Assembly: GCA_029260055.1 (NCBI GenBank) | Contig: JAJDDX010000461.1 | Span: 1 to 64,000 of the forward strand | Length of the DNA: 64,000 bases | Direction of reading: 5' to 3' | From: Phycisphaerae bacterium | GTDB lineage: Bacteria; Planctomycetota; Phycisphaerae; UBA1845 | Part shown: positions 42,059-48,811 of the stretch, in pieces | How the letters are laid out: every line of letters begins with the position of its first letter | Numbering within the stretch: the stretch's first letter is position 1 | The notes under the pieces: generated by a model | Databases searched by the model: none | The model's input: the letters and a program-made list of their open reading frames with translations, nothing else | Told to the model about the DNA's origin: nothing | Program-made: the position numbers and the translations under genes

Positions 42059-44275
42059 ATGGGTGCATCGGAACAGACCCGAGTCACACGGACGTCGATC
42101 GCACGCCGTGCCGCGAGGCTGCTCCTCGCGCCGCTGGTAATCGTGGTCGTCATCGGCGCGATCGGCTACTACGTCCAAACGAACCACAACCGGACCATCC
42201 TGCAACAGGGCGAGGCTCACGCCGTGAGTTATCGCACTCCGTATCTCACGAGTGAGTTGGAGCTGGCGGCATCGGACTTGATGGTGCTGTCGGACTGTCA
42301 CGAGTTGAACGACTTGTTGCGTGCCGCGCAACTCGATCGCCCCGCCGCCAAAGCCGCCCTGGCGCACGAGTTCTTCATCTTCTCGGCCAACCGCAGATGG
42401 TATGACCAAATCCGTGTTCTTGACGACAAAGGCGCGGAGGTCGTTCGGGTCAACTTCAATGATGGTTATCCCTCGGTCGTGGAGAAAGCGGCGCTACAGC
42501 AAAAGCAGGCTCGTTACTACTTCGAACATGCGTTCCGCCTCGCTCGAGGAGAGGTCTACGTCTCCCCCATGGACCTGAACAGGGAGCGCGGCGAGATCGA
42601 ACGGCCCCTCAAGCCGGTCATCCGCCTGGGCACGCCCGTTTTCGATCAACACGGCGCCAAGCGGGGAATCCTGTTGGTGAACTACATGGCCGGGCCCATG
42701 CTTCAAGGATTCGTCGGGCTCGGCGGCGCGGGTCGGTCCGAGTGGATGTTGCTCAACGCGGACGGGTACTGGCTCGAGAGCCCCGATGCCCAAGACGAAT
42801 GGGGGTTCATGTTCGCGGACCGACAGGACCGCACATTCGAGCGGGCGTTCCCGGCCGAGTGGAGTCGCATCAGTTCGAACGAACGGGGTCAATTCGAGAC
42901 GCGCGCAGGCCTGTTTACATTCGCCACGGTGAGCCCTCTTCCGGTAGGTCCGAAGCCGGACATCAGATCGAACGCCCCTTACACCAACTGGCGTTCATCG
43001 ATAGACATCAACCGCTATCGGTGGAAGGTCGTGTCCCGCGTGCCCGCCCCGATTCTCAGCGCCATGCGGACCACGGCGCTGCACTGGACGATCGCGATTC
43101 TTGGAGGTCTGGCCGTGGTGCTCGGCGCGACATCGTGGCGGCTGGCGCGCGCCCAGGTCGTGCGCGAGCACGCCGATCAGACCCGACATGCGGTGGAGGA
43201 GCGCTTTCGCGTGGCATCCCAGTGCGCCAGCGATCTGATCTACGATTGGAACATCGCCACGGGCGAACTCGATTGGTTCGGAGACATCGACGGCGCCTTG
43301 GGCTACGAACCCGGCGAATTCCCCAGGACGCTCGATGGCTGGTTCGCTCTGATTCACTCGGATGACCAGGCGGCCCTCGAGGAATCCATGCACCGCTGCC
43401 GGGAGAACGCGGAATCGATCAACGTGGAGTACAGAATTCGGCACAAGGGCGGCACGTGGCTCCACTGGCAGGACCGGGGCACCATCGTGACGGATGCATC
43501 AGGAACACCGGCGAGATTGATCGGTGCCTGCGACGACATCACGGAACGGAGGCAGTCGGAGGTCCGCCGCGCGTGGAACACGATGGCTGACGGCGTCTCG
43601 AACGAGTTGCTGCGGGTCTCGCTCTCGGCTAGTTCGCAGGACGAGTTGGCCGCCAAAGCGCTCGACGTACTGCTCGGCGTGGACTTCCTGCAGATTGGAA
43701 ACCAGGGTGCGATCTTCCTCGTGGAGGACACACCGGACGTCCTGGTGCGCCGCGCGGATCGCAATCTCGCCGAGCCGCTTCGCGAGTTGTGCGAGCGCGT
43801 GCCGTTCGGGCACTGCCTTTGCGGACGGGCGGCATCCAGCGGCGACGTCCAGTTCGCGTCATGTGTCGACGAGCGGCACGATACGTGCTTCGATCGCATG
43901 ACTGAACATGGGCACTACAGCGTACCGATCATGGCTGGAAGCCGGGTCCTCGGCGTGCTCACGTTCCATCTCCCCGAGGGTTCCGAGCAGAGACAGCGAG
44001 AAGCCGATCTACTGAAGAATGCCGCGGACATCATCTCGGGCGCGCTGCAACGCCTGGCTGCCGAGCAGGAATTGAAACACAGGATCCATCAGGTCTCGGA
44101 ATCCAAGCATCACCTCGAAATCCTGGTGTCCAATACCACGGAACGGGAAAAGCGAATGATCGAACTCAAACAGGAGGTCAACGACCTGCTGCAGGAAGCG
44201 GGGCACGAGCTCCGTTACGAGGCTCCGCGAGAAGTCGCGGCGCTGACAGCGAGCACCGAGGCGGTGCGAGCATAG
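42059..44275 (+). CDS. Membrane sensor: Cache-type periplasmic domain, PAS, GAF and terminal coiled coil, no kinase/GGDEF domain
   Basis: TM 'LLLAPLVIVVVIGAIGYYVQT'; periplasmic region to second TM 'ALHWTIAILGGLAVVLGATSW'; PAS_3-like 'EYRIRHKGGTWLHWQDRGTIVTDASGTPARLIGACDDITERRQ'; GAF 'CERVPFGHCLCGRAASSGDVQFASCVDERHDTCFDRMTEHGHYSVPI'. Confidence 0.8.
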   Translation: MGASEQTRVTRTSIARRAARLLLAPLVIVVVIGAIGYYVQTNHNRTILQQGEAHAVSYRTPYLTSELELAASDLMVLSDCHELNDLLRAAQLDRPAAKAALAHEFFIFSANRRWYDQIRVLDDKGAEVVRVNFNDGYPSVVEKAALQQKQARYYFEHAFRLARGEVYVSPMDLNRERGEIERPLKPVIRLGTPVFDQHGAKRGILLVNYMAGPMLQGFVGLGGAGRSEWMLLNADGYWLESPDAQDEWGFMFADRQDRTFERAFPAEWSRISSNERGQFETRAGLFTFATVSPLPVGPKPDIRSNAPYTNWRSSIDINRYRWKVVSRVPAPILSAMRTTALHWTIAILGGLAVVLGATSWRLARAQVVREHADQTRHAVEERFRVASQCASDLIYDWNIATGELDWFGDIDGALGYEPGEFPRTLDGWFALIHSDDQAALEESMHRCRENAESINVEYRIRHKGGTWLHWQDRGTIVTDASGTPARLIGACDDITERRQSEVRRAWNTMADGVSNELLRVSLSASSQDELAAKALDVLLGVDFLQIGNQGAIFLVEDTPDVLVRRADRNLAEPLRELCERVPFGHCLCGRAASSGDVQFASCVDERHDTCFDRMTEHGHYSVPIMAGSRVLGVLTFHLPEGSEQRQREADLLKNAADIISGALQRLAAEQELKHRIHQVSESKHHLEILVSNTTEREKRMIELKQEVNDLLQEAGHELRYEAPREVAALTASTEAVRA

Positions 44276-44291
44276 AGGCCGGAGGCGGTTC

Positions 44292-46794: not shown

Positions 46795-47261
46795 AACGGA
46801 TCATCTGTGTCGGCAACCGATTCCACGCGCAGGATGCGGCCGGACCGGCCGTCTACGATCGGCTTGCCAGCCACTCGATACCCGACGATGTCGAGGTCAT
46901 CGACGGTGGATTGGCTGGGCTCGACCTTCTTCGTTTCGTGGAGGACGCCGAGCGAGTCGTATTCGTAGACGCGGTGATCGGATTGAGCGGAACGGTCGGC
47001 GTTGTGATTCTCGACAGAGCTGATGCCTGTCGCTACGCGGCGGCGGCGGCGTACGGCCATGCCGCCGGACTGACCTATCTGTTGCAGGCGCTCCCGCACG
47101 TGTGCGAGGGCGCAATCCCGGAGGTCCATCTCGTGGGGATCGAGGGGGATGCGGACGACGAGACAATCCGAGTGGCCGCCGAACTCAGCGTGTCCGTCGC
47201 CGTTGATGGTGTCAGTCACACGACACCGACGGCAACGAGGCTCGCGGGAGTGACTTCGTGA
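46791..47261 (+). CDS. Hydrogenase maturation protease (HyaD/HybD/HupD family)
   Basis: 'CVGNRFHAQDAAGPAVYDRL', 'VEVIDGGLAGLDLLRFVEDAERVVFVDAV'; ATGA overlap with the large-subunit stop. Confidence 0.85.
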   Translation: MKRIICVGNRFHAQDAAGPAVYDRLASHSIPDDVEVIDGGLAGLDLLRFVEDAERVVFVDAVIGLSGTVGVVILDRADACRYAAAAAYGHAAGLTYLLQALPHVCEGAIPEVHLVGIEGDADDETIRVAAELSVSVAVDGVSHTTPTATRLAGVTS

Positions 47262-48811
47262 TCCCAGAGGATCAAGAACAATCGAGAGAAGTGCTCCGCC
47301 AGGAGAACGCGCTACTCAAGGAGCACATCGAGGCTCTGACCGCCGCGTCCGACGTGTCCCGGGAGCTCGTCTTGAAGGAGTTCAAAAAGAGCGAACAGAT
47401 GCTCCGCGAGCTCGAAGAAAGAGCGGCCGCGGAGCAAGCGCTCAAGGAGGAGTTGGAGAAGAGGCTCCGTGAAGCGGAAGCCCGTGAGCGAGAACTCGCG
47501 ACGGAACGAGCCCGGCTTGAAGACATGCAAATCGCCGCCATCAACATGATGGAAGACATCGCAGCCGCTCGAACACGCGCCGAGGCCGCCACGAGGGCGA
47601 AGAGCGAGTTCCTCGCCAACATGAGCCACGAGATTCGCACACCGATGACGGCCATCGTCGGATTCGCCGAGAACGTCCTCGAACCCGACCAGTCCGCCTC
47701 GGAGAGGATAAACGCGATCCACACGATCCGTCGCAACGGCCAGTACCTGCTCGGAATCATCAACGACATCCTGGACCTGTCCAAGATCGAAGCGAACAAG
47801 ATGACGATCGAGCGCATCCCCTGCAATCTGTGCCGGCTCGTCGCGGAGGTTGCGTCACTCGTGCGCGTCAGGACCGAGGAAAAGGGACTGGCATTCCACA
47901 TCGAGTACCTCGGAGCTATTCCCGACACGATCCGGACCGATCCCACACGGCTGCGTCAGATCCTGATCAACTTGATCGGCAACGCGGTCAAGTTCACGGA
48001 GGAAGGCGGCGTGCGGCTGATCGTTCGCTTCGTGGACGACGAACGCCCCTACATGCAGTTCGATGTACTCGACACCGGCCTGGGGATGACCGAGGAGCAA
48101 ACGATCGGCCTTTTCCAGGCCTTCACCCAGGCCGACGCCACCATGACGAGGAAGTTTGGCGGCACCGGCCTCGGACTGACCATCAGCAAACGCTTCACAA
48201 ACATGCTCGGTGGTGACATCACGCTCATCGAAACCAAACAGGGAAACGGTACGCGTTTCCGCGCGACCATAGATGCCGGGTCGCTTGACGGCGTGGCGAT
48301 GCTCCACGACCCCATGTCGGCCACTGATGTGGAGCGCGAGGCCGCCACGACGGCCGGCGAGACCGCGCCAACCGCCTTGCGAGACTGCCATGTCCTTCTG
48401 GCGGAAGATGGCAAGGATAACCAGCGTCTGATCACGCACATCCTATCCAAGGTCGGGGCAAGCGTAACCGTGGAGGAGAACGGTAAGCTGGCCATGGAGA
48501 CCGCGGTGGCTGCGCGCGACGCGGGGACACCTTTCCATGTCATCCTCATGGACATGCAGATGCCGGTCATGGACGGCTACGAAGCCGTCAGCCTGTTGAG
48601 GGAGAGGGGCTACGAAGGAGCGATTGTCGCCGTGACCGCGCACGCGATGAAGAGCGACCGGCAGAAGTGTCTCGATGCGGGTTGCGACGACTATGCCACC
48701 AAGCCCATCGACCGGAAGAGGTTGATCGAGACCGTTCGAACACAGTTTCTGGGATGCATCGCCACCTGGCAGAAGCGCGTCGAGCGACGAGCGGGTGTCG
48801 CCCTCGAATAG
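47258..48811 (+). CDS. Soluble hybrid histidine kinase (coiled coil, HisKA, HATPase_c, REC)
   Basis: 'FLANMSHEIRTPMTAIVGF' H-box; 'QILINLIGNAVKFT', 'DTGLGMTEEQ', 'GGTGLGLTISKRF'; REC 'HVILMDMQMPVMDGYEAV'; GTGA overlap with the protease stop. Confidence 0.93.
   Translation: MIPEDQEQSREVLRQENALLKEHIEALTAASDVSRELVLKEFKKSEQMLRELEERAAAEQALKEELEKRLREAEARERELATERARLEDMQIAAINMMEDIAAARTRAEAATRAKSEFLANMSHEIRTPMTAIVGFAENVLEPDQSASERINAIHTIRRNGQYLLGIINDILDLSKIEANKMTIERIPCNLCRLVAEVASLVRVRTEEKGLAFHIEYLGAIPDTIRTDPTRLRQILINLIGNAVKFTEEGGVRLIVRFVDDERPYMQFDVLDTGLGMTEEQTIGLFQAFTQADATMTRKFGGTGLGLTISKRFTNMLGGDITLIETKQGNGTRFRATIDAGSLDGVAMLHDPMSATDVEREAATTAGETAPTALRDCHVLLAEDGKDNQRLITHILSKVGASVTVEENGKLAMETAVAARDAGTPFHVILMDMQMPVMDGYEAVSLLRERGYEGAIVAVTAHAMKSDRQKCLDAGCDDYATKPIDRKRLIETVRTQFLGCIATWQKRVERRAGVALE

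Follow-up and report, generated by a model that had tools for sequence, protein, structure and literature searches.

A kinase-linked NiFe hydrogenase of group 2c type in a Phycisphaerae bacterium: a likely cytosolic H2 sensor with a proposed helical input to its effector

In this paper we ask what a NiFe hydrogenase does when its genes lie between genes of signal transduction. The case is a stretch of 64,000 nucleotides from a Phycisphaerae bacterium (GenBank assembly GCA_029260055.1, contig JAJDDX010000461.1, positions 1 to 64,000), which we call the window, and in it five genes on the forward strand (42059-48811) that encode a membrane sensor protein, the two subunits of a hydrogenase, a maturation protease and a hybrid histidine kinase. 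H2 sensing by a NiFe hydrogenase together with a histidine kinase is already known from hydrogenase group 2b, and group 2c has been suspected to be sensory. We know of no system, HoxBC-HoxJ included, for which the transfer of the H2 signal from the sensory hydrogenase to its effector has been resolved. We consider it likely that the window encodes a cytosolic H2 sensor, in which the hydrogenase signals to the hybrid kinase through the N-terminal helix of the kinase. We read the five genes in this way because of the operon layout, the four NiFe-ligating cysteines, the phylogeny of the large subunit, and the co-conservation and specificity of the motifs described below. What appears to be new is a kinase-linked clade of 2c type, a hydrogenase-specific effector helix with interchangeable outputs, a putatively sensory large subunit that is matured by a protease and accompanied by a CxGD motif, and a second sensor.

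The five reading frames are uninterrupted (738, 312, 519, 156 and 517 residues), and a sequence-only reading of the window had described them as co-directional and tightly coupled, which they are. The genes of the small and large subunits are 4 bp apart, those of the large subunit and the protease share an ATGA overlap (46791-46794) and those of the protease and the kinase a GTGA overlap (47258-47261). The gap between the sensor and the small subunit is 16 bp on recount and not 17 bp. The enzyme is also of cytosolic type as described, since no Tat (twin-arginine translocation) signal was found in the small subunit and no cytochrome b gene lies alongside; an assignment to the membrane-bound uptake enzymes of group 1 fails on the same two points. 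All four NiFe-ligating cysteines are retained in the large subunit. A scan for promoters and terminators gave nothing above chance level.

Our scan of species genomes for this hydrogenase resulted in 80 loci. In a maximum-likelihood tree built from 95 large subunits (support given as bootstrap/SH-aLRT, the SH-like approximate likelihood ratio test) we distinguish group 2b (100/95), group 2a plus the relative L109 (100/99), a clade A of Methylobacter type (100/100) and a clade B with the window (98/96). Clades A and B join at 100/99, the window lying inside clade B and outside the Methylobacter subclade, and together they are the sister of group 2a. Clade B comprises 52 sequences from about nine phyla; among its members are sulfate reducers, Acidobacteriota, Myxococcota and Planctomycetota. 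Methylobacter tundripaludum, a member of clade A, is a published reference of group 2c (PMC4853749), and HydDB labels 2c as 'diguanylate cyclase-linked (putative)' and 2b as 'histidine kinase-linked' (PMC5037454). Judged by its sequence the window hydrogenase is of 2c type, and by gene content it is kinase-linked. The kinase output departs from the HydDB label.

The sequence motifs of the subunits show how the window compares with the known systems. All 80 readable small subunits of clades A and B have CxGD or CxGE at the proximal cluster, a position that reads CxGN in 2a and CGGC in HoxB. The L2 motif of the window, SFDACLVCAVH, is one substitution away from the published 2c consensus SFDxCLVCTVH (PMC4853749), while clade B mostly has SFDPCLVCTVH and the Methylobacter clade SHDPCLVCTVH. 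The large subunit carries a 17-residue C-terminal extension and has a protease gene alongside, whereas HoxC has neither, its missing extension being documented (PMC10073562). The protease probably removes this tail: its gene is present in 26 of the 35 clade B loci whose large subunit has a long tail, against 4 of the 13 whose tail is short (Fisher p = 0.0085, kinship ignored). With the 2c type of Methylobacter tundripaludum, its sister clade, the window shares CxGD/E, the C-terminal extension, the usual protease gene and a downstream effector with an N-terminal coil. It differs in that the effector is a hybrid histidine kinase and not a GGDEF/EAL protein, lacks a Rieske domain and has another coil consensus, and in the membrane sensor gene upstream. 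The 2b systems (HoxBC/HupUV with HoxJ of Cupriavidus necator) resemble it in being cytosolic NiFe heterodimers without a Tat signal and with a histidine kinase gene alongside, and also, as we propose, in the role of H2 sensor. Group 2b, however, has no large-subunit extension and no protease, and shows the CGGC of HoxB, a Gln after CGIC and a longer HoxB C-terminus, none of which applies to the window; HoxJ is without the coil motif of the window kinase.

The order of small subunit, large subunit, protease (where there is one) and effector is repeated in some 80 loci spread over many phyla, and because of this recurrence the arrangement of hydrogenase and effector is not due to chance. In nearly all loci the effector is the next gene after the subunits and any protease. 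It is a histidine kinase wherever readable in clade B, except for a GGDEF cyclase in two Desulfobulbaceae-type loci (L096 and L098). Clade A is more mixed, with kinases in 13 loci, GGDEF/EAL proteins in 15 and one effector unresolved, and the HydDB cyclase label therefore fails for the 13 kinase-bearing members among the 29 of this reference clade. The tree requires the type of effector to have changed at least three times. In three clade A loci (L104, L115 and L119) protease, coil and histidine kinase are even fused in a single frame. Our search of papers, most subscription titles lying outside it, found only a cyclase linkage described for group 2c and none of the features that we list above as new. 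Our results correct the catalogue in this respect, as most of the members found here, from about nine phyla, are kinase-linked.

The effectors of clade B start with a conserved stretch of about 40 residues (xENxLLRxExRVARxAxxITAxLVVEQFxKxExxLxRLEx), which precedes HisKA, PAS, GAF or GGDEF domains alike. Since it stays the same in front of such different domains, it is the tie with the hydrogenase that is conserved and not the output. A hidden Markov model (HMM) of the motif matches 52 of the 5,551 open reading frames (ORFs) of the fetched loci, and all 52 are effectors adjacent to the hydrogenase. The motif is found in 51 of the 52 clade B loci, the exception being L085, where the contig ends 502 bp past the large subunit. 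The HMM was built from these same loci, and the reverse searches of genomes therefore weigh more. The genome of the window has a single copy, that of the window kinase. Among 392 genomes of the phylum the motif occurs in three only, the window's own (G000), G058 and G090, and precisely these genomes also have the hydrogenase, at an identity of at least 57% (about 57-60% in G058 and G090); in close relatives of the host no ortholog of the hydrogenase was found. Searching 40 host genomes resulted in 46 copies. One of the extra copies belongs to a tandem kinase in a known locus, and five more are on other contigs, where each immediately follows another hydrogenase or the protease gene that goes with it; some of these are fragments or lie at contig ends. 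The locus with the tandem (L053) has its two kinases at 2995-5868 and 7637-8443 behind one hydrogenase, both with the motif.

Other kinases in the loci (24 of 79, at least one of them a split ORF) are without either form of the motif, and their N-termini resemble each other in 10 of 105 pairs, against 866 of 1,326 pairs among the motif effectors. Clade A has a coil of its own at the same position in all 29 loci, on kinases and cyclases. Comparison with hhalign places the coils of the two clades in register (P = 4.6e-5, probability 68%), a result that suggests a shared origin. Searching 23 clade A genomes resulted in 24 copies of their coil, the one exception to hydrogenase linkage that we found being an extra orphan kinase of Methylomonas koyamae, whose genome also has the hydrogenase. 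This is a hybrid kinase in strain SM2 (L174, 4414-7425, reverse strand) with no hydrogenase within 1.3 kb. The hydrogenase-linked effector of the same strain is a cyclase, and there might perhaps be two outputs from one sensor. We found no PDB chain that matches the helix, and a plasmid search for it found none.

How might the signal travel? The group 2c-type heterodimer would bind and slowly oxidise H2, after the protease has matured the large subunit by cutting its tail. It would dock on the N-terminal helix of about 40 residues of the kinase, and its redox or conformational state would pass along this helix, unbroken into the phospho-acceptor (DHp, dimerisation and histidine phosphotransfer) helix. 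An AlphaFold2 model of the window kinase joins the motif and the His124-bearing DHp helix in a single helix, residues 6-141 (mean predicted local distance difference test, pLDDT, 77; predicted template modelling score, pTM, 0.49). H2 is presumed to shift the DHp bundle and to alter kinase or phosphatase activity, in whichever direction the response may run. The phosphate would then leave via the receiver domain to a histidine phosphotransfer (HPt) protein and a regulator encoded elsewhere, and through these reach putative target genes.

A wider proposal, for which we see about equal grounds for belief and doubt, is that the helix is a portable H2-input module and the 2c-type hydrogenase a general receptor for any effector that bears it, be it a kinase, a PAS- or GAF-kinase or a diguanylate cyclase, that outputs were exchanged three times or more and that the window operon is a two-input H2 detector. 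A short helix that occurs only beside one type of hydrogenase, and is common to effectors of unrelated catalytic class, is a specific candidate for the interface, and one that experiments can delete, exchange and probe. It is also a possible building block for H2-responsive genetic switches. Some relatives add a further element, as Pfam finds a Rieske domain ahead of the coil in two clade A effectors (L100 and L124). Such a domain could take electrons from the hydrogenase, which hints that in some of these members electrons, besides shape changes, may reach the effector. By eye, an N-terminal Rieske-like CxH...CxxH also stands ahead of the coil in L102, L105, L108, L111-L114, L122 and L130, among cyclases and kinases.

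The second input of the window would be the membrane sensor. The sequence-only reading had called this first gene a Cache-PAS-GAF protein; PAS and GAF stand, and the supposed Cache domain matches the histidine-kinase sensor domain PF21623 of Pfam. In the window and in five further loci (L041, L051, L055, L073 and L074), the gene that immediately precedes the small subunit encodes a PAS protein with a conserved 54-residue motif at the C-terminus. The N-terminal sensor parts of these six proteins vary, and a kinase domain was found in none. Strong copies of the motif occur once per genome and only at these loci. Five weak or partial matches elsewhere place it within a larger family of PAS-output coils. 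The simplest explanation is that the upstream protein probably adds a second input, feeding an extracytoplasmic signal to the same kinase via its conserved coil. Most clade B loci are without such a sensor.

Three observations weigh against our interpretation of the window as a 2c-type sensor with a docking helix. Firstly, in the approximately unbiased (AU) test a tree that joins the window clade with 2b is 58 log-likelihood units worse and yet is not rejected at 0.05 (p = 0.07). We nevertheless reject 2b membership; the AU test alone does not, but the clade, the extension of the large subunit, the motif in the small subunit and the architecture of the kinase all speak against it. Secondly, the kinase motif of the window is one of the most divergent copies, with 43% identity to the first sequence of the alignment and 45.7 bits against about 60-70 for most copies. 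And thirdly, the confidence of the AlphaFold2 model is lowest over the motif (pLDDT about 50-75 at the pTM above); a low value there fits a helix that needs a partner, yet it is no evidence of one.

An unlikely alternative is that a catalytic uptake hydrogenase, similar to Huc of group 2a, lies beside regulatory genes by chance and that the kinase governs its expression and does not read its state. The window enzyme does resemble the 2a enzymes (Huc of mycobacteria and its Thermus and Sulfobacillus homologues): Huc (7uus) is the best PDB match and the closest sequenced structure, a C-terminal extension with a protease is shared with it and typical of catalytic enzymes, and clades A and B together are the sister of 2a. 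But 2a loci have CxGN, NifU, NHL and TPR genes as neighbours and no effector gene, while the window has none of these neighbours and no electron-carrier subunit in its operon, and its large subunit falls outside the 2a clade. We reject 2a membership on clade and neighbouring genes. The constancy of the linkage and of the N-terminal motif, while the type of effector varies, is also hard to reconcile with a chance neighbourhood. The sequence-only reading, which proposed an H2-responsive phosphorelay, had named two outcomes that would speak against it, a large subunit in a catalytic uptake clade with electron-transfer partners and a lack of co-conservation of kinase and hydrogenase genes. We looked for both and found neither, as the large subunit groups with the Methylobacter 2c clade and the two kinds of gene are strongly co-conserved; the proposal is thus supported, with the H2-dependence of the kinase itself inferred.

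We find it quite improbable that the complex senses cellular redox state, O2 or CO through the metal centres of the hydrogenase, with H2 not being the physiological signal. The unusual CxGD ligation of the proximal cluster could alter the redox potential, and some relatives have added a Rieske domain to the effector. Against this, the enzyme has retained a complete active site and a maturation protease of its own, and this points to selection acting on the H2-binding site. Least credible is a pairing of the N-terminal coil of the kinase with the conserved C-terminal coil of the upstream sensor, the hydrogenase being a mere passenger, since the sensor coil occurs in 6 clade B loci against 51 of 52 for the kinase motif, including loci with unrelated upstream genes, and every copy of the kinase motif in the 40 genomes adjoins hydrogenase or protease genes.

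Table 1. Positions in the window of the five genes and of the motifs discussed in the text.
Feature	Position	Strand	Basis and remarks
Membrane sensor protein, 738 residues, without kinase domain	42059..44275	+	Membrane-spanning segment at the N-terminus; PF21623 sensor domain, PAS and GAF by Pfam; coil at the C-terminus
Conserved 54-residue C-terminal motif of the upstream sensor	44084..44245	+	SExKxxLExLVSNTTxREKRMxxLKxEVNDLL...KYxxP; six loci
NiFe hydrogenase small subunit, 312 residues	44292..45230	+	Pfam Oxidored_q6 and NiFe small-subunit C-terminal domain; without Tat signal, without HoxB-type C-terminal extension
Proximal-cluster motif C-S-G-D in the small subunit	44328..44339	+	Asp in place of the HoxB Cys (CGGC) or the 2a Asn
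NiFe hydrogenase large subunit, 519 residues, HydDB group 2c-like	45235..46794	+	Pfam NiFeSe_Hases; tree
L1 motif RICGIC, two of the four NiFe-ligating cysteines	45424..45441	+	Sequence comparison
L2 motif SFDACLVCAVH, remaining two NiFe cysteines	46708..46740	+	Published 2c consensus SFDxCLVCTVH
17-residue C-terminal extension past the L2 histidine, probably cut off by the neighbouring protease	46741..46791	+	Not present in HoxC
Hydrogenase maturation protease of the HycI/HyaD family, 156 residues	46791..47261	+	Pfam HycI
Hybrid histidine kinase, 517 residues	47258..48811	+	N-terminal coil, HisKA, HATPase_c, receiver; no PAS, no HPt
Hydrogenase-linked effector motif (proposed docking helix), kinase residues 15-54	47300..47419	+	HMM E = 1.6e-13

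The genome of the host (7.6 Mb in 500 contigs) encodes four NiFe large subunits. Among the others are a group 1 enzyme with cytochrome b (contig C364) and a group 3-like enzyme beside hypA-F (C127), and the earlier expectation that the hyp genes, which the locus lacks, lie elsewhere in the genome was correct. Contig C414 (17000-21800, L038) has a NiFe hydrogenase outside group 2 that adjoins a multihaem cytochrome c gene. The genome has seven HPt matches, one of them a stand-alone frame of HPt size (117 residues, C477).

Downstream of the kinase, the gene at 49115-50932 (forward strand) was considered as a sixth member of the cluster and rejected, being about 300 bp distant and kept in six related genomes. 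In the three of these that were scanned for the hydrogenase (G005, G014 and G035) no ortholog of it was found. The 605-residue product has no Pfam or NCBIfam match and is 65-73% identical in the six genomes; it represents a conserved unknown family of the host's order, unconnected with the hydrogenase. Upstream of the cluster, at 37085-40284, a Ser/Thr protein kinase gene adjoins a divergent gene for a sigma factor of the extracytoplasmic function (ECF) type, a pairing that is common in Planctomycetota.

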